DNA from: Chitinophagaceae bacterium PMP191F
GTDB taxonomy: Bacteria > Bacteroidota > Bacteroidia > Chitinophagales > Chitinophagaceae
Assembly: GCA_001302245.1 (NCBI GenBank)
Contig: LGYU01000004.1
Coordinates: 62,001-126,000 of the forward strand
Direction: 5' to 3'
DNA length: 64,000 bases
Part shown: in pieces, positions 4,738 to 46,642 of the stretch
Layout: each line of letters opens with the position of its first letter
How positions within the stretch are numbered: position 1 is the first letter of the stretch
Translations under genes and position numbers: made by a program
Notes under the pieces: model-generated
What the model saw: only the letters and a program-made list of their open reading frames with translations
Database searches by the model: none
What the model was told of the DNA's origin: nothing

Positions 4738-6780
4738 ATGTCAGGAAAGAACTTCCAGCCTTTTATAGCTCCTGAAACCAGGATGGCCGAGTTTACGATC
4801 AAGTCAGTAGTAGTAGGTTCCATCTTCGGGATCATTTTTGGTGCATCCACTGTGTATCTCGCATTAAAAGCGGGGTTAACAGTTTCCGCATCTATCCCTA
4901 TTGCTGTAATGGCCATTACACTCAGCCGTTTGTTTTTGCGTACCACCATCCTGGAAAACAATATCATCCAGACAACAGGCAGCGCCGGTGAAAGTATTGC
5001 AGCCGGTGTGGTATTTACACTGCCCGGATTTCTTTTTCTGAGCAATCCTTCAAGCGCGGATAACTTCAATTACATTACCATCCTCATTCTGGCCATCTTT
5101 GGTGGTATCCTAGGTACGTTGATGATGATACCGCTGCGCCGTGCATTGATAGTAAAAGAGCATGAAACACTTCCTTATCCGGAAGGAACCGCCTGTGCCT
5201 CTGTATTAAAGGCGGGTGAAAAAGGCGGAGATGTTGCAAAAACAGCCTTCTGGGGCTTAGGAGTAGCAATGATTTATGCTTTTCTGCAAAAAGTATTACA
5301 TCTGATTGCAGAAACTCCTTACTATATGACTAAGCAAGCCAACAAATATTTTCCCTCTGCACGCCTCAGTGGAGAGATTACCCCTGAATATCTCGGCGTG
5401 GGTTATATTGTAGGCCCTAAGATCGGAGGCATTTTGGTAGCAGGTAGTGTGTTGTGCTGGTTTGTATTTATACCATTACTGGCTACATTGGTTCCCGCGG
5501 ATATGATTGCTACCCAACTTGTAAAACTGGGATATTTGCACTCAATTACAGAATCTGGTGCAGGTTGGGATGCTGTAAATCATACATTTAGTGATTACTC
5601 AACTGCTATTTATAAGGCTTATGTCCGCCAGATAGGTGCGGGAGCTGTTGCTGCCGGAGGCTTCATTACACTGATTAAAACAATTCCAACGATCATTTCT
5701 TCATTTAAAGGTAGCCTTGGATCTCTCAAAAAAGAAGACGGAACAACAGAATCCGTATCCCGTACAGAAAAAGATCTTTCAATAAAAATTGTTGGTATAG
5801 GCAGCCTTGTTCTGGTTTTATTGATTGCCATTATGCCACAGATTCCCGGTGAAGGTATTGGCAGCAAATTATTACTGAGTTTATTGATAGTAATTTTCGG
5901 AGCGTTCTTTGTTACCGTATCATCACGCATTGTAGGTTTGATCGGTTCTTCCAACAACCCTATCAGCGGTATGACCATTGCTACGATTATGGGCACCTGT
6001 CTCGTATTTGTTGCAGTAGGATGGACCGGAAAAACATATGAACCAATGGCATTGGTAGTCGGTGGGATTATCTGTATAGCGGCAGCCAATGCAGGCGGTA
6101 CTTCACAAGATCTTAAAACCGGGTATATAGTTGGTGCAACACCTAAATATCAGCAATACGCATTGTTTATCGGAGCTATCGTATCCTCTATCGCCATTGG
6201 CTTCACTATAAAAGTATTGGATACCCCTACAGCAGAAATGGTTAAACAAGGTATTAATCATGCAATCGGAACTGAAACCTATTCTGCTCCGCAAGCCACT
6301 TTAATGGCAACCCTTATTAAAGGAATACAATCATCCAATCTTGACTGGCAGTATGTTCTGGTAGGCGTTTGTATTGCCATCACTATGGAGCTGTGCGGCA
6401 TTAAAGCATTATCTTTCGCTATTGGCATTTACCTGCCGCTGGCTACTACTCTTCCCATTTTTATTGGTGGTGCAATCAGAGGTCTGGTTGACAGAAAAAA
6501 GAAGAAAAAAGGTGAAGTGGAAGAAGAAGAGGATTTAAGTAAAGGTAATCTCTTTGCAACCGGTCTTGTAGCAGGTGGTGCTATTGCAGGGGTTATTGTT
6601 GCATTCCTATCTGCCAGAGGCTCTATAAAGGCTGGGTTACAAAAATTGAGTATTGAAGAGTTTTTGTCCGGAACAAACAGCCTTGGCATAAATGGATATT
6701 ACCTGCTGGGAATCATCCTCTTTGCTTTAATGGGATTCATGTTGTATAAAGTAGGTATGAATAAAGAAAAGACGGAATAA
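4738..6780 (+). CDS. OPT-family oligopeptide transporter
   Basis: A 680-aa polytopic membrane protein of the oligopeptide transporter (OPT) family, which moves peptides or metal-chelating peptides across the inner membrane. The N-terminal block FGASTVYLALKAGLTVSASI and the nearby TTGSAGESIAAGVVFTLPG are typical of bacterial OPT proteins. Around 14-16 hydrophobic segments are visible. A strongly charged cytoplasmic loop (a Lys run followed by a Glu run) lies near residue 585. It directly follows the POT transporter gene, and a rho-independent terminator follows at 6805. The substrate is unknown. Bacterial OPT members are poorly characterised compared with the fungal and plant ones. Confidence 0.9.
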   Translation: MSGKNFQPFIAPETRMAEFTIKSVVVGSIFGIIFGASTVYLALKAGLTVSASIPIAVMAITLSRLFLRTTILENNIIQTTGSAGESIAAGVVFTLPGFLFLSNPSSADNFNYITILILAIFGGILGTLMMIPLRRALIVKEHETLPYPEGTACASVLKAGEKGGDVAKTAFWGLGVAMIYAFLQKVLHLIAETPYYMTKQANKYFPSARLSGEITPEYLGVGYIVGPKIGGILVAGSVLCWFVFIPLLATLVPADMIATQLVKLGYLHSITESGAGWDAVNHTFSDYSTAIYKAYVRQIGAGAVAAGGFITLIKTIPTIISSFKGSLGSLKKEDGTTESVSRTEKDLSIKIVGIGSLVLVLLIAIMPQIPGEGIGSKLLLSLLIVIFGAFFVTVSSRIVGLIGSSNNPISGMTIATIMGTCLVFVAVGWTGKTYEPMALVVGGIICIAAANAGGTSQDLKTGYIVGATPKYQQYALFIGAIVSSIAIGFTIKVLDTPTAEMVKQGINHAIGTETYSAPQATLMATLIKGIQSSNLDWQYVLVGVCIAITMELCGIKALSFAIGIYLPLATTLPIFIGGAIRGLVDRKKKKKGEVEEEEDLSKGNLFATGLVAGGAIAGVIVAFLSARGSIKAGLQKLSIEEFLSGTNSLGINGYYLLGIILFALMGFMLYKVGMNKEKTE

Positions 6781-6804
6781 AGTTATCCTGTTATAAACAA
6801 GAAG

Positions 6805-6842
6805 GCCATGAGTGGTGGAGTTACCCTGCTCATGGCTTTTTA
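6805..6842 (+). terminator. Rho-independent terminator of the peptide-transporter genes
   Basis: The 8-bp inverted repeat GCCATGAG (6805-6812) and CTCATGGC (6829-6836) is followed directly by TTTTTAT. It lies 25 bp after the OPT stop codon. Confidence 0.8.
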
Positions 6843-6892
6843 TTTTCAGAACAATGAAGACGGTGGTAGAAAAGTGAAAAACCCGTGTAAAC

Positions 6893-7279
6893 TTAGTTCA
6901 TCTTAAACGGCACAATCATTTCAAAAACAGGAATATTCACCTCAAAGGTGAGCTTATTATTCAGGTTTTCCATCAGGTAGGTACCATACATTTTCCCCAT
7001 TTCACTACGCAGATTGCAACCGCTTACATATTGGTAGCGTTCGCCCGGTTGCAATGAAGGTTGTACGCCTACAACCCCTTCCCCTTCTACTTCACGGTTA
7101 CTACCATTGCTATCAGCAATAAACCAATGGCGGCGGTGCAGTTTTACAGGGAAATTATTATGATTTTCAATTGTTATGCGGTAGGCAAACATGTATTCCC
7201 CGGAAACGGGATTTGAATAATCCGGCTGGTAAAACGTTTCCACGCTTACTTCAATTCCTTCAGAGATTTTCGATACCAT
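6893..7279 (-). CDS. apaG: ApaG-domain protein (Co2+/Mg2+ efflux-associated family)
   Basis: The 128-aa protein consists almost entirely of one ApaG/DUF525 fold, an FnIII-like beta sandwich. The segments EYMFAYRITIENHNNFPVKL, RRHWFIADSNG and GEGVVGVQPSLQPGERYQY match the family in order and spacing, including the conserved glycine-rich turn. ApaG was linked to cobalt and magnesium resistance in enterobacteria, but its biochemical role is still unsettled. It lies alone on the minus strand between two plus-strand genes and is divergent from icd, with about 134 bp shared upstream. It is probably cytosolic. Confidence 0.9.
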   Translation of the reverse strand: MVSKISEGIEVSVETFYQPDYSNPVSGEYMFAYRITIENHNNFPVKLHRRHWFIADSNGSNREVEGEGVVGVQPSLQPGERYQYVSGCNLRSEMGKMYGTYLMENLNNKLTFEVNIPVFEMIVPFKMN

Positions 7280-9687: not shown

Positions 9688-10542
9688 TTAAACCACTACT
9701 GCTTTCAGGCTCAGGTCCAGGCTATGTGCCTGGTGTATCAATGCACCCACACTCACAAAATCAACACCGGTAGCAGCGTATGCTTCTATAGTATCCATAT
9801 TGATGCCACCACTGGCTTCCGTTTCATATTTACCATTGATCAACTGCAATGCTTCGCTGATCTGTTCGGGTGTAAAATTATCCAGCATAATACGGTTTAC
9901 TTTGCCAATAACCATTACCCTTTTTACTTCGTCCAGGTTACGTGTCTCTACCTCGATCTTTAAGCCGGGTTTAACCTGCTGTACATATCGCCATGCACGT
10001 TCAATAGCGTTTTCCAGCCCACCGGCATAGTCAATATGATTATCCTTCAGCATGATCATATCGTAAAGACCCATACGATGATTTAAACCACCACCAATAC
10101 GCACTGCTTCTTTTTCCAGCAACCTGAAGTTGGGCGTTGTTTTACGCGTATCCAGCACCCGTGTATGATAGTTTTTGATCTTCTCAGCATACTGATGGGT
10201 AAGTGTGGCAATACCACTCATGCGCTGCATACAGTTCAGCACCAGGCGTTCACATTGCAAAATAGTATATACAGATGCAGATACTTCAAAGGCAATTTCG
10301 CCCGGGTGCATTACATCACCATCTTTTTTAAAAGCTGTAAACTGTATATCGGGTTGCTGGTAACGAAATATTTTTTCAGCCACTTCCACACCAGCCAGTA
10401 TGCCTGTCTGTTTAATTTTTAACACAGCTTTCCCTTTGGCATCGGCAGGTATGGCAGACAATGTTGAATGATCACCATCGCCAATATCCTCACGCAATGC
10501 AGCGTTGATCAGTATCTGTAATTGTTCGTCGAACGTAAGCAT
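9688..10542 (-). CDS. nadC: Nicotinate-nucleotide pyrophosphorylase (carboxylating), QAPRTase
   Basis: Converts quinolinate and PRPP to nicotinate mononucleotide, the entry from de novo quinolinate to NAD. The 284-aa product carries the core motifs of the family: RMSGIATLTHQYAEKI, VLDTRKTTPNFRLLEKEAV, GGGLNHRMGLYDMIMLKDNH and a late GGINMDTIEAYAATGVDFVS. The TRKT and NHRMGL segments bind substrate phosphate and quinolinate in known structures. No nadA or nadB is adjacent. The start at 10542 gives the usual N-terminal domain. It is cytosolic and monocistronic as far as can be seen. Confidence 0.95.
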   Translation of the reverse strand: MLTFDEQLQILINAALREDIGDGDHSTLSAIPADAKGKAVLKIKQTGILAGVEVAEKIFRYQQPDIQFTAFKKDGDVMHPGEIAFEVSASVYTILQCERLVLNCMQRMSGIATLTHQYAEKIKNYHTRVLDTRKTTPNFRLLEKEAVRIGGGLNHRMGLYDMIMLKDNHIDYAGGLENAIERAWRYVQQVKPGLKIEVETRNLDEVKRVMVIGKVNRIMLDNFTPEQISEALQLINGKYETEASGGINMDTIEAYAATGVDFVSVGALIHQAHSLDLSLKAVVV

Positions 10543-10661
10543 GTAGCAAAACTAATGAAGAAAGTCAGAAAAATGTGCAGATCAGCAAATGCGCAGATAT
10601 CAATAATAACCCTGGTCAGTACGATCTTATTAAATCCCTAAACCTGTGTTATAATCTGCGT

Positions 10662-10696
10662 AAAAAAAAGACCCTCAACATTGCTGTTAAGGGTCT
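10662..10696 (-). terminator. Rho-independent terminator after the DUF4783 gene
   Basis: On the minus strand a 12-bp stem (plus-strand AGACCCTCAACA at 10669-10680 and TGTTAAGGGTCT at 10685-10696, one wobble) is followed by a run of eight T. It lies 25 bp after the stop codon at 10721. Confidence 0.85.
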
Positions 10697-10720
10697 GTTG
10701 CGTTTTCAGGGATAATATGT

Positions 10721-11113
10721 TTATTCTACCAGTTCAAAGACCAGTTCCTGCACCACCTGCGTATCACCTTTCTGTTTCATAAAAAACTTGGTGCGGTAGC
10801 TGCCATTACGGGTTAGCAGTACGCCAATGCAGAATTGAGAACCGCTTTGTTCTCCCTTGTGTTTAACCTGGAAACTCTTTACCTCGTTGGTGGAGAAAAA
10901 ATCTTTCAGAATCATTTCAGCCTGGCTTTTACTGTAATTGTCATTCTTGCCGGGTAATGAAATGTCCACACGGGCATCAAAGTATTTTGACAACTGGCTG
11001 GCGTTGCCGCTTTTCATGGCAGTTATCACGTCATCAATCGAATAAAAATCCGGAGTAAATGACACCAGGAAAAGCGAGAGAAAGAGGATCGCAAATCCCA
11101 GGGATTTTTTCAT
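10721..11113 (-). CDS. DUF4783-type exported protein (NTF2-like)
   Basis: The 130-aa protein has an N-terminal signal peptide (MKKSLGFAILFLSLFLVSF) and a single small domain resembling the Bacteroidota DUF4783 family, an NTF2-like or lumazine-type fold by analogy. Recognisable parts are SIDDVITAMKSGNASQLSKY, the acidic ARVDISLPGKNDNYS and FFMKQKGDTQVVQELVFEL. No catalytic residues are evident and the function is unknown. It is probably periplasmic. It is divergent from gpmI, with about 135 bp between them, and ends in a strong terminator, so it is a single-gene unit. Confidence 0.8.
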   Translation of the reverse strand: MKKSLGFAILFLSLFLVSFTPDFYSIDDVITAMKSGNASQLSKYFDARVDISLPGKNDNYSKSQAEMILKDFFSTNEVKSFQVKHKGEQSGSQFCIGVLLTRNGSYRTKFFMKQKGDTQVVQELVFELVE

Positions 11114-11199
11114 ATATATTTTTTTTCTGCTCTCAAAGTTGCGAAAAACATGCCAAAGTAAGATTGCGTTGAAAAAATACTATCAACCACCTATTGCCT

Positions 11200-11207
11200 T
11201 ACCTTTG
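11200..11207 (+). promoter_or_regulatory. Candidate -7 box of the gpmI promoter
   Basis: TACCTTTG matches TAnnTTTG and stands 41 bp before the gpmI ATG. No convincing TTG is seen at the expected distance upstream. Confidence 0.4.
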
Positions 11208-11248
11208 TAACACTTCTAATAATAAATTCAACACAATCACATCGTTAT

Positions 11249-12772
11249 ATGCCTGCTTCAAAAGTCATTCTTGTTATCATGGATGGTTGGGGACTTGGAA
11301 AAGTACAGTCTGCAGATGCTATCCAACATGCAAAAACTCCGTTTGTAAGCTCCTTATATGCCAAATATCCCAACAGCACGCTGGTTACCTGTGGCGAACA
11401 GGTAGGCTTACCTGACGGGCAGATGGGCAACAGCGAAGTAGGCCACCTGAATCTTGGCGCCGGCCGCATTGTGTACCAGGAACTGCAACGCATTAACGTA
11501 GCTATCCGCGATGAATCGTTTTATAAAAATCCTGCGTTGCTCAATGCCATTCACTACGCTATTGAAAATAAAAAACCTTTACACCTGCTGGGCCTGGTAA
11601 GCGATGGCGGTGTTCACTCACATACCAATCACCTGAAAGCCATCGTTTCGCTTTGTTATAAAGAAGGGTTAAAAGATGTGTTTATACATGCTTTTACTGA
11701 TGGACGTGATACTGACCCGAAAAGCGGACTGGGTTTTCTGACTTCATTGCAACAACACCTCAATGCCACTACCGGTAAAATTGCTACAGTAAGCGGTCGC
11801 TACTATGCTATGGATCGTGATAAACGCTGGGAGCGTGTAAAACTTGCTTACGACGCTCTGGTAAATGGCATTGGTGAAAAAGCAACCGACGGACTGGCTG
11901 CAGTAGAACAATCTTATGCACATAACATCACCGATGAGTTTATTAAACCCACCGTGATCATTGGCGCCGATCAACTGCCCATTGCCACCATCAAAGATGG
12001 CGATGTTGCCATTTGCTTCAACTTCCGTACAGACCGTTGCCGTGAAATAACACAGGTACTGACACAAACTGATTTTCCTGAACAGAACATGAAACATCTG
12101 TCATTGCATTATACTACCATGACAGAGTACGATAAGACCTTCAAAAACGTACACATCGTTTTTGAAAACGATAACCTGAATAATACACTGGGCGAGATCA
12201 TTGCCGCCAATCATAAAAAACAGATCCGTATTGCGGAAACGGAAAAATATCCGCACGTATCTTTCTTTTTCAGTGGCGGACGTGAAGTACCATTTGAAGG
12301 CGAACGCAGGATCATGGTGCCTTCACCCAAAGTAGCTACATACGATCTCAAACCGGAGATGAGCGCAGTAGAACTTACAGACGCTATTGTTCCCGAACTG
12401 GAGCAGGAAACTGCCGATTTTATTTGTCTCAACTATGCCAATGCTGATATGGTAGGCCATACCGGCATTTTTTCGGCTGCTATCAAAGCAGTAGAAACTG
12501 TAGACAAATGCGTGGAAAGAGTGGTTACAACCGCCCTGGCACACGGATATGCCGTATTTCTGACGGCAGACCACGGTAATGCTGATTTCATGATAAATGC
12601 AGACGGTACCCCCAACACTGCCCATACCCTGAACCTGGTACCTTTCTTTATTATTGATAAAGACTGGAAAGGCACTATTAAACCCGGTAAGCTGGGCGAT
12701 ATAGCTCCTACTATTCTCACCTTTATGCATCTACCCATTCCGGCCGAAATGACCGGCAATGTGCTGATATAA
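11249..12772 (+). CDS. gpmI: 2,3-bisphosphoglycerate-independent phosphoglycerate mutase
   Basis: Interconverts 3- and 2-phosphoglycerate in glycolysis and gluconeogenesis by a two-metal phosphoserine mechanism. The 507-aa length is standard. Asp12 in VIMDGWG and the phospho-acceptor Ser62 in GQMGNSEVGHLNLGAGR are present. The metal-binding C-terminal motifs NYANADMVGHTG and FLTADHGNADFM are intact. The insert between them (about residues 80-310) is the phosphotransferase domain typical of this class. A terminator follows directly, so it is a single-gene unit expressed from its own promoter. Confidence 0.96.
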   Translation: MPASKVILVIMDGWGLGKVQSADAIQHAKTPFVSSLYAKYPNSTLVTCGEQVGLPDGQMGNSEVGHLNLGAGRIVYQELQRINVAIRDESFYKNPALLNAIHYAIENKKPLHLLGLVSDGGVHSHTNHLKAIVSLCYKEGLKDVFIHAFTDGRDTDPKSGLGFLTSLQQHLNATTGKIATVSGRYYAMDRDKRWERVKLAYDALVNGIGEKATDGLAAVEQSYAHNITDEFIKPTVIIGADQLPIATIKDGDVAICFNFRTDRCREITQVLTQTDFPEQNMKHLSLHYTTMTEYDKTFKNVHIVFENDNLNNTLGEIIAANHKKQIRIAETEKYPHVSFFFSGGREVPFEGERRIMVPSPKVATYDLKPEMSAVELTDAIVPELEQETADFICLNYANADMVGHTGIFSAAIKAVETVDKCVERVVTTALAHGYAVFLTADHGNADFMINADGTPNTAHTLNLVPFFIIDKDWKGTIKPGKLGDIAPTILTFMHLPIPAEMTGNVLI

Positions 12773-38512: not shown

Positions 38513-38540
38513 TTGTAATGCCTTAAATAGCTTTACCTTG
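38513..38540 (+). promoter_or_regulatory. Candidate promoter of the TonB receptor
   Basis: TTG (38513-38515) is followed after 18 bp by TACCTTG (38534-38540), one base short of the TAnnTTTG box. The ATG follows at 38583. Confidence 0.35.
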
Positions 38541-38582
38541 CAACAAACACATCATCTTCCCTGCCAAAACAGACGATTTTTT

Positions 38583-40652
38583 ATGATGCGCTGCTTCCAG
38601 ATTTCTGTGATTGCCTTCTTTGCCTTTTTTAATACCCTATTACTGTCTGCCCAAACCCAACAGGATTCATCGCATGTGCTGCCGCAGGTAATAATACAGG
38701 CTTTCGGGCAAAACCGGCAACAAAAAGAGGTTTCCGCTGCTATCAATATTATTGAGCAGGCACAAATAGAACGCTATAATAATACCTCGTTGCTGCCCGC
38801 CATTAACAGTACACCCGGCATACGCATGGAAGAGCGCTCCCCCGGCAGCTATCGTATCAATATACGCGGCACATCGCTACGCTCGCCTTTTGGCGTACGC
38901 AACGTAAAAATATACTGGAACGGCATTCCTTTTACCGATCCGGGTGGCAATACCTATCTCAATCAACTCAGCTATTACAATGTCTATTCCATGGAGGTGA
39001 TCAAGGGTCCGGCTGGTAGCATGTACGGAGCAGGAACCGGTGGTGTAATTCTGCTGAATAGTTTACCCGATACACGGACCGCAGGTGCCGATGTTGCATA
39101 TCAATATGGCAGCTTTGGGTTGCATAACATTAATGCTCAGGTGCGGACAGGCAAAGAAGAACATCATGATATATTTTCTTACTCCCATTTACAAAGTGAT
39201 GGCTACCGTGATCACAGCAATATGCGCCGGGATGTTGCAACCTGGGAAACCCGTATCCGGATCAATGACAAACAACAGCTCAGTGCGTCTGTACTATATG
39301 GCAATCTTTATTATCAGACACCGGGGGCACTGACCAGGGCCGAATACAATAACAATCCCAAAGCCGCACGCCCCGCTGCCGGCGCATTTCCCAGTGCCGA
39401 TGGTGCCAGGGCTGCTATTTACCAACAAACCTTTCTGGCTGGCATTACCCACAATTATTGCCTGACAGAACAACTGCAAAACCAGACTGTGGTATACGGC
39501 GCATTTTCACTGGTTAAAAATCCTACCTTTCGCAATTTTGAAAAACGTACAGAACCCCATTTCGGCGGCCGTTCTGTATTTACCTGGCAACATAACATTG
39601 ATCAGACCGGATTACAGGTACTGATAGGCGGAGAGGCACAACAGGGCTTTTTTAATACCAAAACCTTCCAGAACAAAAACGGCAATCCCGATACGCTTAT
39701 GACTGACGACGACATCAGCAACCGTATTATTTCAGGTTTTGTACAAACCGATATCCGTTTCCCGTTCGGGTTTACTATTAATGCAGGTGTAAGTATTAAC
39801 CACTCTGCAGTGACCGTTACAAGACTTTCTGTTCCTTCTTTTATTCCATTGAAAAGAGCCTATAACAGTGAATGGGCACCACGATTGGCCCTTTCACAGA
39901 AACTGGGTTCACACATGCAGGTATATACCAGCATTTCCCGTGGTTTTTCACCGCCCACTACTCAGGAAATATTGCCCTCCACCTCTGTTATCAGCCTGGG
40001 ACTGGAAGCAGAACATGGTATTAATTATGAAGCAGGCATTAAAAGTTCCTGGCTGCAACAACGGTTATATATTGAAGTGAACACCTTCTGGTACCAGTTG
40101 AAAAATGCCATTGTACAACGCAGAGATGCTTCCAATGCTGATTACTTTGTAAATGCCGGTTCTACACGTCAACAGGGTATTGAATCACAGGCATCCTATT
40201 ACTGGCTACGTAATGAAACCGGGTTGTTTACCCAGGTTCGCACCTGGGCAGCTTACACCTATAATCATTTCCGGTATCATGATTTTAAACAGCTCAATAC
40301 AGACTTCTCAGGCAATAAATTACCCGGAGCCGCTACCAACACTTTTTCAGCCGGAGCAGACATCACTACAAAGCCTGGTTTATATACCAACCTCACCTGG
40401 TTTTACAGCGATCCTATTGCGCTGAATGATGCTAATACAGATATTGCCTCATCTTACAACCTGTTTGGAGGCAGGATCGGCTGGCGTAAAACATATCACA
40501 AAACTACGCTGGATATTTTTGCCGGCGCCGATAACCTGTTCAATGTCCGCTATAGCCTGGGTAACGATATCAATGCCACCGGCGGACGTTATTATAATAC
40601 GGCACCGGGAACTGCTTATTTTGCGGGAATCATTGTACGGCCTGGTTTTTAG
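38583..40652 (+). CDS. TonB-dependent outer-membrane receptor
   Basis: A 689-aa receptor without an N-terminal STN or carboxypeptidase-like domain. A signal peptide (MMRCFQISVIAFFAFFNTLL, cleavage near LLSAQ) precedes the plug, seen in PAINSTPGIRMEERSPGSYR, SYYNVYSMEVIKGPAGSMYG and AGTGGVILLNS. A 22-strand-type barrel follows, ending GIIVRPGF with terminal Phe. It precedes the cobalamin riboswitch and the B12 operon, so vitamin B12 or cobinamide is an attractive substrate. The riboswitch lies downstream, however, so the receptor itself would not be under its control, and a siderophore receptor is equally compatible with the sequence. The longer start (TTG, 38538) is rejected. Confidence 0.92.
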   Translation: MMRCFQISVIAFFAFFNTLLLSAQTQQDSSHVLPQVIIQAFGQNRQQKEVSAAINIIEQAQIERYNNTSLLPAINSTPGIRMEERSPGSYRINIRGTSLRSPFGVRNVKIYWNGIPFTDPGGNTYLNQLSYYNVYSMEVIKGPAGSMYGAGTGGVILLNSLPDTRTAGADVAYQYGSFGLHNINAQVRTGKEEHHDIFSYSHLQSDGYRDHSNMRRDVATWETRIRINDKQQLSASVLYGNLYYQTPGALTRAEYNNNPKAARPAAGAFPSADGARAAIYQQTFLAGITHNYCLTEQLQNQTVVYGAFSLVKNPTFRNFEKRTEPHFGGRSVFTWQHNIDQTGLQVLIGGEAQQGFFNTKTFQNKNGNPDTLMTDDDISNRIISGFVQTDIRFPFGFTINAGVSINHSAVTVTRLSVPSFIPLKRAYNSEWAPRLALSQKLGSHMQVYTSISRGFSPPTTQEILPSTSVISLGLEAEHGINYEAGIKSSWLQQRLYIEVNTFWYQLKNAIVQRRDASNADYFVNAGSTRQQGIESQASYYWLRNETGLFTQVRTWAAYTYNHFRYHDFKQLNTDFSGNKLPGAATNTFSAGADITTKPGLYTNLTWFYSDPIALNDANTDIASSYNLFGGRIGWRKTYHKTTLDIFAGADNLFNVRYSLGNDINATGGRYYNTAPGTAYFAGIIVRPGF

Positions 40653-40737: not shown

Positions 40738-40745
40738 TACATTTG
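40738..40745 (+). promoter_or_regulatory. Candidate -7 box of the B12 operon promoter
   Basis: TACATTTG matches TAnnTTTG. A start a few bases downstream would begin the transcript at or just inside the predicted riboswitch P1 stem, so the P1 boundary and this box cannot both be taken at full length. Confidence 0.4.
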
Positions 40746-40746
40746 T

Positions 40747-40951
40747 TGGGTAATTGGTTCTTAGCCCGGCACTATGCCAGACTAAGATGAAAAGGGAAAC
40801 CGGTGTAAATCCGGTGCTATTCCCGTAGCTGTAAGCAACTGTGAACCTTTGTGTTCACAAACTGCCCGATCTTCACACCACTGTTGCACATTAAGCAGCG
40901 GGAAGGTATCGGGGGTGGTAAGCAAGCCAGAAGACCTGCCAGTTATACCCA
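40747..40951 (+). promoter_or_regulatory. Cobalamin (adenosylcobalamin-type) riboswitch
   Basis: The aptamer is recognisable from its conserved blocks in order: AAAGGGAAACCGGTGTAAAT (40791 onward), the region GTAGCTGTAAGCAACTGTGA (about 40826-40845), and the B12 box AGCCAGAAGACCTGCC (40925-40940). A closing stem TGGGTA (40747-40752) pairs with TACCCA (40946-40951), with TGG/CCA inside. The element lies about 150 bp upstream of the first gene of the B12 operon. By family knowledge, corrinoid binding would lower downstream expression. A further inverted repeat downstream may be part of the expression platform. Confidence 0.93.
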
Positions 40952-40983
40952 TGCATCAACAGGCTTTCGGGAAAAAAGGCCAG

Positions 40984-41101: not shown

Positions 41102-41683
41102 ATGTCATTGAAGAAATTTAATCCGCGTTCTGTTATACTACTTGCTTTTATGCTGGCAGTAGCAGCTATTCGTGTGTTGCTAAGCTGGCAACCAGATATT
41201 TCTCCCATGTCAAATTTTACTCCGCTGGCTGCTATAGCATTGTTTGGCGGTGCCTATTTTACCAAAAACACCAAGGCATATTTCTTCCCGCTTATTACTT
41301 TATGGCTGGGAGACATTGTACTGAATAAACTGGTTTTCTATCATGAATGGCGACTGCTTTACGACGGCTGGTACTGGACCTATGGATCATTTGCACTAAT
41401 GGTGCTTACAGGGAAACTAATGATCAAAAAAGCAAATGTTGCCAATGTTGGTTTATCAGCAATTGTTGCTACGTTTATTCACTGGCTAGGTACCAGCCCT
41501 GCCTGTCTGTTGATAAAAGGCTCTATGTATCCCCGGACATTTAATGGCTGGATCACCAGCCTGATAGCTGCAATTCCCTACGAATGGAATATGCTGGTAA
41601 GTACACTTATATTCTGTGGCGTTTTGTTTGGGGGATTTGAATTGCTACAACGCAGATACAGCTCTTTACAACCTGCTGTTTAA
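41102..41683 (+). CDS. DUF6580-type membrane protein, first gene of the B12 operon
   Basis: A 193-aa polytopic membrane protein with five or six hydrophobic segments (VILLAFMLAVAAIRVLLSW, LAAIALFGGAYF, GSFALMVLTGKLMI, NVGLSAIVATFIHWLGTSPA, and a last one near LVSTLIFCGVLFGGFELL). The set resembles the DUF6580 'putative transport protein' family and the small S-components of ECF-type vitamin transporters. Because a cobalamin riboswitch lies directly upstream, I infer a role in moving a corrinoid or a B12 precursor across the inner membrane. No ATPase or T-component is encoded here, so the transport mode is open. Confidence 0.75.
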   Translation: MSLKKFNPRSVILLAFMLAVAAIRVLLSWQPDISPMSNFTPLAAIALFGGAYFTKNTKAYFFPLITLWLGDIVLNKLVFYHEWRLLYDGWYWTYGSFALMVLTGKLMIKKANVANVGLSAIVATFIHWLGTSPACLLIKGSMYPRTFNGWITSLIAAIPYEWNMLVSTLIFCGVLFGGFELLQRRYSSLQPAV

Positions 41684-41769: not shown

Positions 41770-42708
41770 ATGACAGCTTCATCCTTCCTTCCTGCTGCTA
41801 CGCAAATGATTTATGATATGGGCCTGCAATACCTGTTGCAGGGAGTTACATTTGAATGTCCGCCGGAAGCGCTGGCAGAAAAAAGCAAAGTGGTACGGTG
41901 TGTACTGGAAGGAAAGACCTACAGCAGTCAGGAGATTGATAGAATATTTTCAGCCTCCAAGGCACAAGGCAAAAGCCTGTACTATGTAGATGAAAAATTG
42001 TTGCAATCCATCAATCCTGATATCATTTTTACACAGGATGTTTGTGAAGTTTGCCAGATAGATACCGCCTGCACCGCAGCAGCAGTGGCAAAACTTCCTA
42101 AAACACCACAACTCATTCCGCTCTCGCCCAATACATTGCAGGATGTTTTCCAGACTGCAGTTACTATTGCCACTGCGTTGGGTAAAGAAGAAGCAGCATA
42201 TAGCTATCTCGGCACTTTACAGCAAAGAATAGATGCTGTTACAGATGCACTGCGCAAACACAGAACGCCTTTACGCCGTGTAATGCTGATGGAGTGGATA
42301 CAACCGATCTATAACTGCGGGCATTGGATCCCTTACCAGGTGGCACATGCAGGTGGTGTGGATATGCTCTCTAATCCCGGAGGCGACAGTATTGTAACCC
42401 AATGGGAAAAAATAGTACGTTATGATCCGGAGGTATTGGTAATAGCTCCCTGTGGATTTACCACGGGAAGGACGAAAGAAGAATTACACCTGCTTACACA
42501 AAAACAGGAATGGGCAACACTGGCAGCAGTCAAGAACAAAGCCATATTCCTGGCAGATTATGATCTGTTTACACAACCCAGTGCAGGCACACTAACAGAC
42601 GGCATTGAATTGCTGGCATCCCTATTTCACCCGAACATTTTTGAAGTACCACAGCACCTGCAGGTAAAATATTCTTCATTCTTTCAAACATCCGTTGCCC
42701 ATGTGTAA
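41770..42708 (+). CDS. BtuF-like corrinoid-binding protein without signal peptide
   Basis: A 312-aa protein of the TroA/BtuF periplasmic-binding fold. It begins directly with the first strand of the mature domain (SFLPAATQMIYDMGLQYLLQ, then GVTFECPPEALAEKSKVVRC). Other matches are FTQDVCEVCQIDTACTA (Cys-rich loop), LMEWIQPIYNCGHWIPYQVA, GGVDMLSNPGGDS and DPEVLVIAPCGFT. There is no signal peptide or lipobox, and no earlier in-frame start could add one within the gap after the hairpin. BtuC and BtuD genes are absent. It may bind corrinoids in the cytosol as a buffer or delivery protein. The stop overlaps the next gene by 8 bp. Confidence 0.85.
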   Translation: MTASSFLPAATQMIYDMGLQYLLQGVTFECPPEALAEKSKVVRCVLEGKTYSSQEIDRIFSASKAQGKSLYYVDEKLLQSINPDIIFTQDVCEVCQIDTACTAAAVAKLPKTPQLIPLSPNTLQDVFQTAVTIATALGKEEAAYSYLGTLQQRIDAVTDALRKHRTPLRRVMLMEWIQPIYNCGHWIPYQVAHAGGVDMLSNPGGDSIVTQWEKIVRYDPEVLVIAPCGFTTGRTKEELHLLTQKQEWATLAAVKNKAIFLADYDLFTQPSAGTLTDGIELLASLFHPNIFEVPQHLQVKYSSFFQTSVAHV

Positions 42709-42922
42709 GCACGAAGAAAAAAAGTGTCCCCGGTGTGGCAAAGCATTTGAATGCAAAGTGGGCAATGTGTCTCAATGTCATTGCAACAATGTTACACTTA
42801 CAGACGCAGAACGCAATTTTATAGCACAACGCTACCAGGATTGCCTGTGTCACAAATGTCTTACAGACCTGAAGCAAGGCGCTGTTTTATTCATAGAAAA
42901 ATACCTGCAGAATGCCCGGTAA
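42701..42922 (+). CDS. Small cysteine-rich CWC-type protein
   Basis: A 73-aa protein with eight to ten cysteines in zinc-ribbon-like pairs: KKCPRCGKAFECK, SQCHCNN and DCLCHKCL. It fits the cysteine-rich CWC family, small proteins of unknown function often found near cobalamin genes. The ATG at 42701 lies inside the end of the BtuF-like gene (ATGTGTAA, 8-bp overlap), and the end overlaps cobU by 11 bp, so it is translationally coupled on both sides. A metal-binding or corrinoid-handling accessory role is inference. Confidence 0.8.
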   Translation: MCKHEEKKCPRCGKAFECKVGNVSQCHCNNVTLTDAERNFIAQRYQDCLCHKCLTDLKQGAVLFIEKYLQNAR

Positions 42923-43436
42923 AATAGTGTTCATTACTGGCGGTGCACGCAGCGGTAAAAGCCGTTATGCGCAAACAAAAGCATTACAGCTTAGCAGTAA
43001 TCCTGTATATATTGCCACTGCCCGCCATTGGGATATTGAATTTGAACAACGTATTCAACAGCATCGCTCAGACAGAGATGAACGATGGACCAGCATTGAA
43101 GAAGAGAAATTCATCAGCAAAACCAATATTGCCGGAAAAGTAGTAGTGATCGATTGTGTTACTTTATGGCTTACCAATTTTTTCGTGGATCTTAGTAATG
43201 ATATTGATCAATGCCTGGAAGCCTGCAAAAACGAACTCCAGGCACTTGCTTCTGTTGATGGTACTTTTATTATCATCAGCAACGAAATTGGTATGGGGGT
43301 CCATGCTGAAACAGAGATCGGAAGAAAATTTACTGATCTGCAGGGATGGGTCAATCAATACATAGCAGAAATGGCTGAACAGGTTGTTCTGATGATCAGC
43401 GGCATTCCGGTTATTATTAAAGAGAAAACTGTATGA
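42912..43436 (+). CDS. cobU: Adenosylcobinamide kinase / adenosylcobinamide-phosphate guanylyltransferase
   Basis: Phosphorylates adenosylcobinamide and then adds GMP, activating it for attachment of the lower ligand. The 174-aa protein has the P-loop ITGGARSGKSRYA (residues 8-20). The guanylylation region around PVYIATARHWDIEFEQRI includes the conserved His-type segment. VVIDCVTLWLTNFF is a conserved block, and the late IIISNEIGMGVHAETEIGRK fits the family. It overlaps the Cys-rich gene upstream and the PP-loop gene downstream (4 bp), so the operon is tightly coupled. The substrate would be salvaged cobinamide or its adenosylated form. Confidence 0.95.
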   Translation: MPGKIVFITGGARSGKSRYAQTKALQLSSNPVYIATARHWDIEFEQRIQQHRSDRDERWTSIEEEKFISKTNIAGKVVVIDCVTLWLTNFFVDLSNDIDQCLEACKNELQALASVDGTFIIISNEIGMGVHAETEIGRKFTDLQGWVNQYIAEMAEQVVLMISGIPVIIKEKTV

Positions 43437-44149
43437 TGAAGGCTTACATGAACTGGAGCGGAGGCAAAGACTCTTCTCTATGTCTTTACCGCATCTTACA
43501 GCAAAAGCAATACAATGTGGATTGCCTGCTTACCAGTGTAAATGCTACCTACAACCGCATTTCAATGCATGGAGTGAGAAGGGAATTGCTGGAAGCACAG
43601 TCACACACATTGGGAATTAATCTGACCACTATCGAATTGCCGGAACAGCCTTCTATGCAACAATATGAATCAGAATTGCTGCAAAAGATAAGTTCCTTGA
43701 AAAATACAGGATATACCCATTCTATATTCGGAGATATTTTTTTGGAAGACCTGCGGCAATACCGTGAACAACAGTTGGAGCAAGCCGGTATCACAGCCGT
43801 ATTTCCCTTGTGGAAGGTCCCTACATCACAATTGATGCAGGAGTTTCTGGCAGCAGGCTTTCAGGCTATTGTGGTTTGTGTAAATGAGCAGTTCCTGGAT
43901 AAAAGTTTCTGTGGCAGGCTGATAGACGAATCTTTTGTACATGATTTGCCTGCCAATGTTGATATATGCGGCGAAAACGGCGAATACCATTCCTATGTAT
44001 TTAATGGGCCCGTTTTTAAACATCCAATACACTATTCAAAAGGAGAGATCATATATCGCCGCTATGATACTCCTCTTTCTGTTTCAACTGATATGGACCA
44101 GCCCTCACAATACGGGTTTTATTTCTGTGACCTGTTGCCTGTAGGTTAG
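43433..44149 (+). CDS. PP-loop ATP pyrophosphatase (Dph6-like) in the B12 operon
   Basis: A 238-aa ATP-pyrophosphatase related to diphthine-ammonia ligase (COG2102 type). The PP-loop SGGKDSSLCLYRIL lies at about residues 9-22. Other family segments are SMHGVRRELLEAQSHTLGI, IFGDIFLEDLRQYREQQLE, VVCVNEQFLDKSFCGRLID and DICGENGEYHSYVFNGPVF. Bacteria lack diphthamide, so the eukaryotic substrate does not apply. Amidation or ligation of a corrinoid-related carboxylate is a reasonable guess from its position between cobU and cobT. The 4-bp ATGA-type overlap with cobU implies coupled translation. The true reaction is unknown. Confidence 0.85.
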   Translation: MMKAYMNWSGGKDSSLCLYRILQQKQYNVDCLLTSVNATYNRISMHGVRRELLEAQSHTLGINLTTIELPEQPSMQQYESELLQKISSLKNTGYTHSIFGDIFLEDLRQYREQQLEQAGITAVFPLWKVPTSQLMQEFLAAGFQAIVVCVNEQFLDKSFCGRLIDESFVHDLPANVDICGENGEYHSYVFNGPVFKHPIHYSKGEIIYRRYDTPLSVSTDMDQPSQYGFYFCDLLPVG

Positions 44150-44177: not shown

Positions 44178-45200
44178 ATGCCGCTGAAAGAAGAACTTCA
44201 ACTGATCATTGATAATAAAACCAAGCCGCCGGGTGCGCTGGGTGAGCTTGAAAATATTGCATTACAAGCAGGCCTGATACAACAGACCACCCGGCCACAC
44301 ATTACACAACCACATATTGTTGTATTTGCCGGCGATCATGGTATTGCTCGAACAGGGCTTGTAAATCCCTATCCGCAGGAAGTAACAGCACAGATGGTAC
44401 AAAACTTTCTTCACGGTGGTGCAGCCATCAATGTATTCTGCAAACAGCACCAGATCGTTCTGAAAGTGGCCGATGCTGGTATACAGTCTGACATCATATC
44501 GGACAACCCGATGTTTATTAATGCTAAAATGGGTTATAGCACCCGCAACTATCTTGAAGCAATAGCTATAGATGAACCCGTTGTATTACAAGTCATCGAA
44601 AAGGGAAAGGCCATTGTAAAAGAGATTGCACAAAACGGTTGCAATTGTATAGGCTTTGGAGAAATGGGCATTGGTAACACCTCTTCGGCTGCCCTGATCA
44701 TGAGCGCTATTACAGGTTTACCAGTGGAGCAATGTACAGGAAGGGGTACTGGTGTTAATGATCAGCAATTGCAGGTAAAGATCCGGACGCTGCAACAGGT
44801 ATATGATAAACATCAGCTATATCTATACAAAGATCAGCCGGTTGCTTTATTGTCAAAGATCGGAGGTTTTGAACTTGCCATGCTTACCGGCGCCTACCTG
44901 GAAGCTGCAACGCAAAAAATGATCATTGTAGTAGATGGTTTTATTACTACTGCTGCGTTATTGCTGGCACAACAACTTCGTCCTTCCATACTTCGATACT
45001 GCATTTTTGCCCATACCAGCGGCGAACAGGGGCATGAGAAAATGTTATCCTATCTGCATGCCACGCCACTTTTGCAACTGGGCATGCGATTGGGTGAAGG
45101 CACTGGTGCCGCACTGGCCATTCCCCTCATTCAATCTGCTGTTCTTTTCTTAAATGAAATGGCTTCTTTTACAACTGCCGGTGTTTCCGGCGCACAATAA
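44178..45200 (+). CDS. cobT: Nicotinate-nucleotide-dimethylbenzimidazole phosphoribosyltransferase
   Basis: Makes alpha-ribazole phosphate from nicotinate mononucleotide and a lower-ligand base, for nucleotide-loop assembly of B12. The 340-aa protein starts with IDNKTKPPGALGELENIALQ. It contains HIVVFAGDHGIARTGLVNPY, CIGFGEMGIGNTSSAALIM and, near the end, GMRLGEGTGAALAIPLIQSA, whose Glu is the catalytic base in the family. It lies 28 bp after the PP-loop gene and 6 bp before cobS. Confidence 0.96.
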   Translation: MPLKEELQLIIDNKTKPPGALGELENIALQAGLIQQTTRPHITQPHIVVFAGDHGIARTGLVNPYPQEVTAQMVQNFLHGGAAINVFCKQHQIVLKVADAGIQSDIISDNPMFINAKMGYSTRNYLEAIAIDEPVVLQVIEKGKAIVKEIAQNGCNCIGFGEMGIGNTSSAALIMSAITGLPVEQCTGRGTGVNDQQLQVKIRTLQQVYDKHQLYLYKDQPVALLSKIGGFELAMLTGAYLEAATQKMIIVVDGFITTAALLLAQQLRPSILRYCIFAHTSGEQGHEKMLSYLHATPLLQLGMRLGEGTGAALAIPLIQSAVLFLNEMASFTTAGVSGAQ

Positions 45201-45206
45201 TATCTC

Positions 45207-46022
45207 ATGATAAAGAGCGAGCTTCGCATTTTTTTTACCGCTGTAATGTTCCTTACACGGTTGCCTGTTCCTGCATTCACTGATCATTCGCAGGACTATC
45301 TCGAAAAATCCACGCGTTACTTTCCTCTCATAGGGTGGATAACAGGTGCTATCAGCGCACTCACCTTTATCATTTTCAGTAAATATATTGGTACCGATAT
45401 TGCCATACTGGCCTCCATTATTGCGGGTATTCTTACCACCGGTGCATTGCATGAAGACGGTTTTGCCGATGTGTGTGACGCATTTGGCGGTGGATGGACC
45501 AAAGAAAAGATTCTGCTTATTATGAAAGACAGCAGGCTGGGCACTTTTGGTGTTATAGGTTTGATATGCGTACTGGGCGCCAAATTCCTGCTTCTGAAAG
45601 AGCTTCCCACTTTTATGCCCGATCTTTCCAGTCCTACCACCAACGTTCTTTTTAATTACCGTTATTTTCTACTCATCGTCATTGCTGCACATAGCATCAG
45701 TCGTTTGATGAGCGTACTTACCATCAATCTTTTTGACTATGTTACAGATCCGGATACCAGCAAATCAAAACCGGTTACCAGTCGCAAACCTACTGCCGGT
45801 ATCATTGTTGTTGCCTGTGTTTTTGGGTTACTCCCCCTGACACTGCTGGACTGGCATTTTTTATTCTGTCTCATACCCGTAATGTATGCCGGTTACCAGC
45901 TAGCATGCTATTTTAAAAAATGGATCGGTGGTTACACCGGCGATTGCCTGGGGGCCATTCAGCAGGTAAGTGAACTTACTTTTTATCTTTGTGCCATCAT
46001 TGTATGGAAATATTTTCCATAA
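45207..46022 (+). CDS. cobS: Adenosylcobinamide-GDP ribazoletransferase (cobalamin synthase)
   Basis: An integral membrane enzyme that joins adenosylcobinamide-GDP with alpha-ribazole (phosphate), the last assembly step of the nucleotide loop. The 271-aa protein has the family opening FFTAVMFLTRLPVPAF. The catalytic motif is GALHEDGFADVCDAFGGG, with LIMKDSRLGTFGVIGL downstream. Several hydrophobic segments follow, and the end contains KKWIGGYTGDCLGAIQQ, also a signature. It follows cobT by 6 bp. Confidence 0.96.
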   Translation: MIKSELRIFFTAVMFLTRLPVPAFTDHSQDYLEKSTRYFPLIGWITGAISALTFIIFSKYIGTDIAILASIIAGILTTGALHEDGFADVCDAFGGGWTKEKILLIMKDSRLGTFGVIGLICVLGAKFLLLKELPTFMPDLSSPTTNVLFNYRYFLLIVIAAHSISRLMSVLTINLFDYVTDPDTSKSKPVTSRKPTAGIIVVACVFGLLPLTLLDWHFLFCLIPVMYAGYQLACYFKKWIGGYTGDCLGAIQQVSELTFYLCAIIVWKYFP

Positions 46023-46042: not shown

Positions 46043-46642
46043 ATGCCCATTTACCTGATACGTCATACAGCTCCTGCAGTTGAAAAAGGTATCTGTTACG
46101 GACAGGCTGACATTGATGTGCTGGATACGTTTGAAACAGAGGCAACAATCATCCGGCAGCATTTGCCTGTTAACCTGCAACATGTTTACAGCAGTCCTCT
46201 TCAACGTTGCCGGAAACTGGCAGACTGGTTATTTCCGGATACAAATATCGTTAACGAGCCTCTTTTGAAAGAGATACATTGCGGTGAATGGGAATTGCAA
46301 CACTGGGATGCTATTCCCAAGGAAATTATTGATCCCTGGATGAATGATTTTGTCAATGTGGCTATACCTGGGGGTGAAAGTTATGTTGCCCTGCATCAAC
46401 GAGTAACACGTTGCTTTGAGCAGATCTGCCACCGGCATTCCAATGCAGTCATTGTAACACATGGAGGAGTGATCAGAAGTATATTGGCACATATCACACA
46501 AACGCCGCTGAAAGATTCCTTTGGCGCATTTGCTATTCATTACGGCTGTGTTATTCAACTGGACCAGACAGATGGTAAATTCACATATCAGCCACTTTCC
46601 AATATTGCCACGCCCAAAGAACAACACAAACCTACCCGGTAA
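46043..46642 (+). CDS. cobC: Alpha-ribazole phosphatase-like histidine phosphatase
   Basis: A 199-aa histidine-phosphatase (phosphoglycerate-mutase superfamily) protein. The catalytic RHxx motif is in MPIYLIRHTAPAVEKGICYG. VYSSPLQRCRKLADWLF carries the second Arg, and VIVTHGGVIRSILAHI the second catalytic His. Position at the end of the cobUTS operon identifies it as the enzyme that dephosphorylates alpha-ribazole phosphate or cobalamin 5'-phosphate. I start at the ATG at 46043, 20 bp after cobS; the longer frame from 45989 would overlap cobS without adding family sequence. Confidence 0.9.
   Translation: MPIYLIRHTAPAVEKGICYGQADIDVLDTFETEATIIRQHLPVNLQHVYSSPLQRCRKLADWLFPDTNIVNEPLLKEIHCGEWELQHWDAIPKEIIDPWMNDFVNVAIPGGESYVALHQRVTRCFEQICHRHSNAVIVTHGGVIRSILAHITQTPLKDSFGAFAIHYGCVIQLDQTDGKFTYQPLSNIATPKEQHKPTR

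Follow-up and report, generated by a model that had tools for sequence, protein, structure and literature searches.

The DUF71 gene under study lies in the window, by which we mean the whole stretch of 64,000 nucleotides that was analysed, within a run of eight co-directional plus-strand genes (DUF6580, btuF-like, CWC, cobU, DUF71, cobT, cobS and cobC) headed by a cobalamin riboswitch. The coordinates of these features are collected in Table 1. The genes of the run overlap or are separated by gaps of less than 90 bp: the CWC gene has 8 bp in common with btuF and 11 bp with cobU, cobU shares the 4 bp ATGA at 43433–43436 with the DUF71 gene, and the distance from the end of DUF71 to the start of cobT is 28 bp. 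This is where an earlier, sequence-only reading had placed the gene, and the ORF, its Pfam match and the spacing all bear it out; the riboswitch was absent from that reading. Promoter and terminator scans gave no usable signal above shuffles.

Table 1. Positions of the features in the window, and of CobT fusions in five other loci
Feature	Position	Strand	Evidence and remarks
TonB-dependent receptor, immediately upstream of the riboswitch; probably serves outer-membrane uptake of corrinoids or the like	38538..40652	+	PF07715; same-place relatives in other B12 loci
Cobalamin riboswitch aptamer (RF00174), heads the run of co-directional genes	40738..40957	+	Rfam 105.8 bits, gathering 31.5
DUF6580 membrane protein, proposed inner-membrane B12 importer	41102..41683	+	PF20221; modelled ECF S-component fold, BtuM-like
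BtuF-like corrinoid-binding protein	41770..42708	+	PF01497; recurrent in B12 loci
Small cysteine-rich CWC protein	42701..42922	+	PF14375; ATG at 42701 (ORF tool: TTG 42695)
cobU, adenosylcobinamide kinase / guanylyltransferase	42912..43436	+	PF02283, NF004469 above cut-off
DUF71/COG2102 N-type ATP pyrophosphatase, very probably class I of the DUF71-B12 subgroup	43433..44149	+	PF01902 122.7 bits; SGGKDS, GENGEYH; full-length DUF71 fold
cobT, nicotinate-nucleotide:DMB phosphoribosyltransferase	44178..45200	+	TIGR03160 above cut-off
cobS, adenosylcobinamide-GDP ribazoletransferase	45207..46022	+	PF02654, NF001277 above cut-off
cobC, alpha-ribazole phosphatase	46043..46642	+	TIGR03162 above cut-off; ATG 46043, longer TTG ORF from 45989
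Nitroreductase-CobT fusions	L218:6770-8455, L219:6351-8045, L220:6505-8211, L221:7180-8859, L222:7126-8802		Pfam for three, alignment for all five

Directly behind the riboswitch stands DUF6580, the predicted model of which has the fold of an ECF S-component. The 20 best structure matches all belong to S-components or to CbiM, which is related to them, and the first unrelated match comes at Z 7.6; the B12 carrier BtuM is tied first at Z 13.3 (range 13.2–13.4 for BtuM and the other S-components). DUF6580 is present in 16 B12 loci (the window, L031, L032, L037, L039, L055, L057, L080, L106, L160, L170, L177, L179, L181, L182 and L185), none of which has BtuC, and BtuC is present in 14 loci, none of which has DUF6580. 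Judging from the modelled fold, DUF6580 would seem to be a solitary, BtuM-like importer of B12 in Bacteroidota; an open literature search found no paper naming it.

A CWC (or CWC-DUF5522) protein accompanies DUF71 and cobU in B12 loci, and in 18 loci, the window and 17 others, such a gene lies no more than ~0.6 kb from DUF71. CobT of the Flavobacterium type, which lies between cobU and cobS, carries a fused nitroreductase-family domain at its N terminus; this domain is probably a BluB-like DMB synthase. A locus of the Flavobacterium type is also encoded by L062, a contig titled Limnohabitans sp. MAG20, which appears to be a mislabelled bin.

The source genome (G000; 6.45 Mb, 99.99% complete) has a single PF01902 gene. 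It possesses CobU, CobS, PduO, MetH and four cobalamin riboswitches, and profile searches of the genome found no CbiB, CbiZ or full-length CbiP; therefore it is regarded as a cobinamide salvager.

Family, fold and classes of the DUF71 protein

The ORF starts with ATG and encodes a protein of 238 residues, whose sole Pfam match is PF01902 (Diphthami_syn_2; cut-off 23.2 bits, profile positions 1–200 of 219). SGGKDS is located at residues 9–14 and GENGEYH at residues 180–186 (CGENGEYH). The closest relatives come from Niastella, Longitalea and other Chitinophagaceae. Because these relatives are 65–68% identical over the full length and the order cobU-DUF71-cobT is retained in sequenced relatives, the gene is not a chance ORF.

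In both phmmer and fold comparison, PF0828 and PH1257, two N-type ATP pyrophosphatases, were the only full-length matches. The DUF71 fold extends across the entire predicted model (pLDDT 93.3), with Z 26.3 to PH1257 (2d13_A) and 25.3 to PF0828 (3rk1_A), and the next-ranking folds, those of argininosuccinate synthase, GMP synthase and other PP-loop enzymes, follow at Z ~12. A profile score above the curated cut-off, an N-type PP-loop and the two-domain fold thus place the protein in DUF71/COG2102, in agreement with the PP-loop, COG2102-type assignment made earlier.

PF0828 (PDB 3RK1) and PH1257 (PDB 2D13) represent Dph6, the diphthine--ammonia ligase, with which the window protein shares the two-domain fold and the ATP-site residues. 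Those named by de Crecy-Lagard et al. are all intact (S9, G11, K12, D13, H46 and the G180-E184 loop). In contrast, the position of the catalytic Glu188 of Dph6 is occupied by His186, and the score against the archaeal Dph6 equivalog of NCBIfam (TIGR03679) is 93 bits, far under the cut-off of 197.3. A role in diphthamide synthesis is rejected on these two grounds, as the sequence-only reading had done for its own reason; to our knowledge, bacteria make no diphthamide.

The bacterial PF01902 proteins with His in place of Glu were defined in 2012 as the DUF71-B12 subgroup, characterized by ENGE[FY]H instead of EGGE/DXE188 and by clustering with B12-uptake genes, and were predicted to serve B12 salvage, perhaps as an equivalent of CbiZ (PMC3541065). 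The gene of the window has both the motif and the clustering with B12 uptake and salvage genes, and is very probably a B12-linked member of this subgroup. Hence it is not the new B12-salvage enzyme that had been announced: the core idea of a B12-salvage DUF71 subgroup was already published in 2012, and what is added here is evidence against the proposed reactions in Bacteroidota. The 2012 set was clustered with BtuCDF and cbiB and tied to the distribution of CbiB and CbiZ, whereas the neighbours in the window are cobUTSC, and CbiB is absent from the source genome and from nearly all sampled relatives.

The DUF71 proteins fall into two paralogous classes, which share a core and differ in its conserved surroundings. 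Class I (~240 aa, GDIFLED..YR) includes the window protein; class II (~216 aa, GDIDLE.HREW) forms a clade with 99% support. H186 and D177 do not vary among the 71 class I and 10 class II sequences compared, and C179 hardly varies. Unlike these two bacterial classes, in which D177, C179, D101, Y78 and W8 are all strictly or almost strictly conserved, Dph6 has other residues at these five positions. The change from Glu to His at the position of Dph6 Glu188 may mean a different reaction.

Linkage and distribution in Bacteroidota

Two samples of genomes were used. The first consists of 178 evenly drawn Bacteroidota genomes, 46 of which carry the DUF71 family (PF01902); the second, a named sample, consists of 46 DUF71 carriers checked for CbiB. 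A search centred on the Limnohabitans-labelled contig drew Bacteroidota genomes again, with the family in 116 of 391, so that its frequency in sampled genomes is about a quarter to 30%.

A cobalamin riboswitch is located less than 6 kb upstream of the gene on the same strand in 14 of the 46 carriers of the first sample, vs 0.05 expected by position alone. The distance between the two is 97 bp in one genome (G074) and ~80 bp in an Ignavibacteriales contig (L057). B12 neighbours are found in several families and in both classes, and by parsimony the linkage changes about 12 times on the tree, only 2 of these changes being forced by strongly supported branches. The link to B12 drawn by the sequence-only reading thus recurs across many lineages.

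Class I genes also occur outside B12 loci as stand-alone genes in Flavobacterium, Chryseobacterium and Algoriphagus, and no B12 genes adjoin the plasmid copies with the His motif in Meiothermus, Priestia and Cetobacterium. The GENGEYH-type motif was considered as a marker of B12 linkage and rejected, since bacterial copies without B12 neighbours possess it as well; the His motif is a mark of bacterial DUF71 proteins generally rather than of B12 linkage. On an Aureibacter plasmid (L212), a DUF5522 gene (6651–7007) comes next after a class II-like gene, and the surroundings contain no annotated B12 genes.

All 10 class II loci examined have a B12 context. The slot between cobU and cobT is occupied by class I in the window, L032, L033, L037, L040 and L106, and by class II in L156, L167, L204 and L206. 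Two paralogous classes thus reached this slot independently, from which we infer selection for this activity beside nucleotide-loop assembly. Members of both classes are present in one locus in L099 (in tandem, 9983–11371), L106, L109 and L202, and their coexistence in the same B12 locus suggests two different substrates.

Among the 46 carriers of the first sample, CobU is present in 9 and CobS in 10, and none has CbiB, CbiZ or CbiP above the cut-off. As 37 of them lack CobU and 36 lack CobS, the carriers, being also devoid of CbiB and CbiZ, must mostly import complete cobamides. Uptake and use of finished cobamides is the trait common to all carriers. The sequence-only reading had held that occurrence of the gene in many genomes with no corrinoid use would refute a B12 role; instead, every one of the 46 has a cobalamin riboswitch and 45 have a PduO adenosyltransferase, both counted among the carriers only. 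MetH is near-universal (167 of the 178 genomes), so that B12 use by carriers is true but non-discriminating. The same 45 genomes with PduO lead to rejection of the DUF71 protein as a replacement of the adenosyltransferase. Dependence on CobU is likewise rejected by the co-occurrence counts: the association with CobU that had been suggested as a check is no higher than background, with 9 of 46 carriers and 39 of 132 non-carriers positive (p 0.25).

The co-distribution with CbiB on which the functional proposal of 2012 was based, a correlate rather than a sequence criterion, is not found here. DUF71 and CbiB are mutually exclusive in the first sample (Fisher p 8e-6), although 32 of the 36 CbiB genomes come from one family and the p value overstates the independent evidence. 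DUF71 is absent from all 39 genomes with CbiP above the cut-off. The sharpest single contrast is offered by one genus (g14), in which 8 of 9 sampled genomes have DUF71; the only one that lacks it is also the only one to have CbiB and CbiP. In the second sample, 1 of 46 carriers has CbiB; in this genome (G181, the source of L033), DUF71 occupies the same cobU-cobT slot.

Such scavenging is the rule in the phylum, with 0.6% of Bacteroidota predicted to produce corrinoids, 96% to use them and almost all to be scavengers (PMC6461909). The occurrence of DUF71-B12 in a quarter or more of the sampled genomes, often near a cobalamin riboswitch, therefore bears on how the phylum lives on the B12 of others.

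Possible reactions of the DUF71 protein

What does the DUF71 protein act on? Because most carriers lack CobU and CobS, and all those of the first sample lack CbiB, an intact corrinoid is favoured as the substrate, and we lean towards the view that the protein acts on the imported corrinoid as it arrives. For the same reason, a step on cobinamide, the aminopropanol linker or the lower ligand, which the sequence-only reading had put forward, would give a product useless in most carriers, and the distribution speaks against this part of the reading as the chief role of the family.

CbiP amidates four corrinoid side chains. The reaction type that we propose for the DUF71 protein, ATP-dependent amidation of corrinoid carboxylates, is that of CbiP/CobQ in de novo synthesis, but CbiP, a synthase that depends on glutamine, belongs to another family, and none above the cut-off was found in the sampled carriers. 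The nearest relative with an assigned reaction is Dph6, an ATP-dependent amide-forming ligase (PMC3541065). Amidation is proposed because the family is one of amide-forming ATP pyrophosphatases and the carriers are scavengers without the de novo amidases. The substrate of the DUF71 protein would be an imported corrinoid, and neither cobinamide nor the linker nor the lower ligand; a corrinoid carboxylate would be adenylated with ATP under release of PPi, and ammonia would then displace AMP, by which the carboxamide side chain would be restored. Hydrolysed or under-amidated corrinoids would thereby be re-amidated and made usable, in the present genome to be completed by CobU, CobT and CobS.

A DUF71-B12 enzyme that re-amidates imported corrinoids in a scavenger unable to make the ring is our best explanation overall, and a tentative one. 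The amidation step on a corrinoid carboxylate, suggested by the family chemistry and the absence of CbiP, is its least certain part and has to be regarded as somewhat doubtful. More speculative still is the idea that such a repair enzyme lets bacteria without CbiP use damaged B12, the two classes serving different side chains or corrinoids. Against re-amidation speak the stand-alone class I genes and the plasmid copies described above, and the exclusion of CbiP and CbiB comes from few independent lineages and has an exception in G181. A search of the open literature turned up neither biochemical nor genetic data on a DUF71-B12 protein, nor an experiment after 2012.

The same distribution and neighbourhood data would fit another ATP-dependent modification of the corrinoid that is not an amidation, such as trapping, conjugation or chaperoned processing, possibly with the CWC protein as a partner. 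CWC adjoins DUF71 in L034, L035, L038, L055 and L080, loci that have no CobU, and His in place of Glu suggests an altered chemistry. However, the analysis gives no pointer to a product, and we know of no modified corrinoid of the trapping or conjugation kind. We hold such a modification to be possible rather than probable, and about as likely as re-amidation.

It is unlikely that the protein is no corrinoid enzyme at all but a housekeeping or metabolite-repair ligase that sits in the B12 operons of some lineages. This would account for the stand-alone class I genes and the plasmid copies without B12 neighbours, but not readily for a linkage to B12 that has changed repeatedly on the tree and involves two paralogous classes, nor for the presence of a riboswitch immediately before the gene in two unrelated lineages.

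Could the protein be a soluble substitute for CbiB, ligating (R)-1-amino-2-propanol to cobyric acid at the expense of ATP and so providing cobinamide for CobU? The chemistry fits the fold, the cobU-cobT slot is occupied in 10 loci by the two classes, and among the 48 genomes with both CobU and CobS, 36 have CbiB without DUF71, 9 have DUF71 without CbiB, none has both and 3 have neither. Nevertheless, cobinamide is a dead end in the carriers without CobS or CobU, and G181 holds CbiB together with DUF71 in the very same slot, which makes this reading quite improbable. Action on the lower ligand or on its riboside, an idea prompted by the adjacency of cobT and by the nitroreductase-CobT fusions, is very improbable. 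In the five loci with these fusions (L218–L222) the slot is without DUF71, but the two are not exclusive, as L156, L167 and L204 have a class II DUF71 together with a CobT of the long, fused size, and an activated lower ligand would be of no use to the carriers without CobS.

We know of no route other than CbiB for the reuse of cobyric acid. The least probable reading is that of 2012, a CbiZ-like cleavage that turns (pseudo)cobamides or cobinamide into cobyric acid for remodelling: it was supported by the exclusion of CbiZ and the co-occurrence of CbiB in the genomes of that time (PMC3541065), and DUF71 is never found with CbiZ in the present sample either, but hydrolysis does not need an ATP pyrophosphatase site, and the role is disfavoured in Bacteroidota because cobyric acid needs CbiB, which is absent from the carriers of the first sample, the source genome included, and present in a single one of the second. 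The amidohydrolases of remodelling, CbiZ and CbiR, have in common with the DUF71 protein the scavenging context near corrinoid genes; they belong to another family, and their product needs the CbiB that is lacking here. The distribution thus removes a CbiZ-like reaction as the general answer for Bacteroidota and points to the intact imported corrinoid.

The carriers that have only uptake, adenosylation and a DUF71 gene are now named, and in these the function could be read by knockout. Plasmid DUF71 copies with the His motif (e.g. L208, L209, L210 and L212) are annotated by NCBI as 'diphthine--ammonia ligase', a database name that is misleading for bacterial DUF71 proteins.
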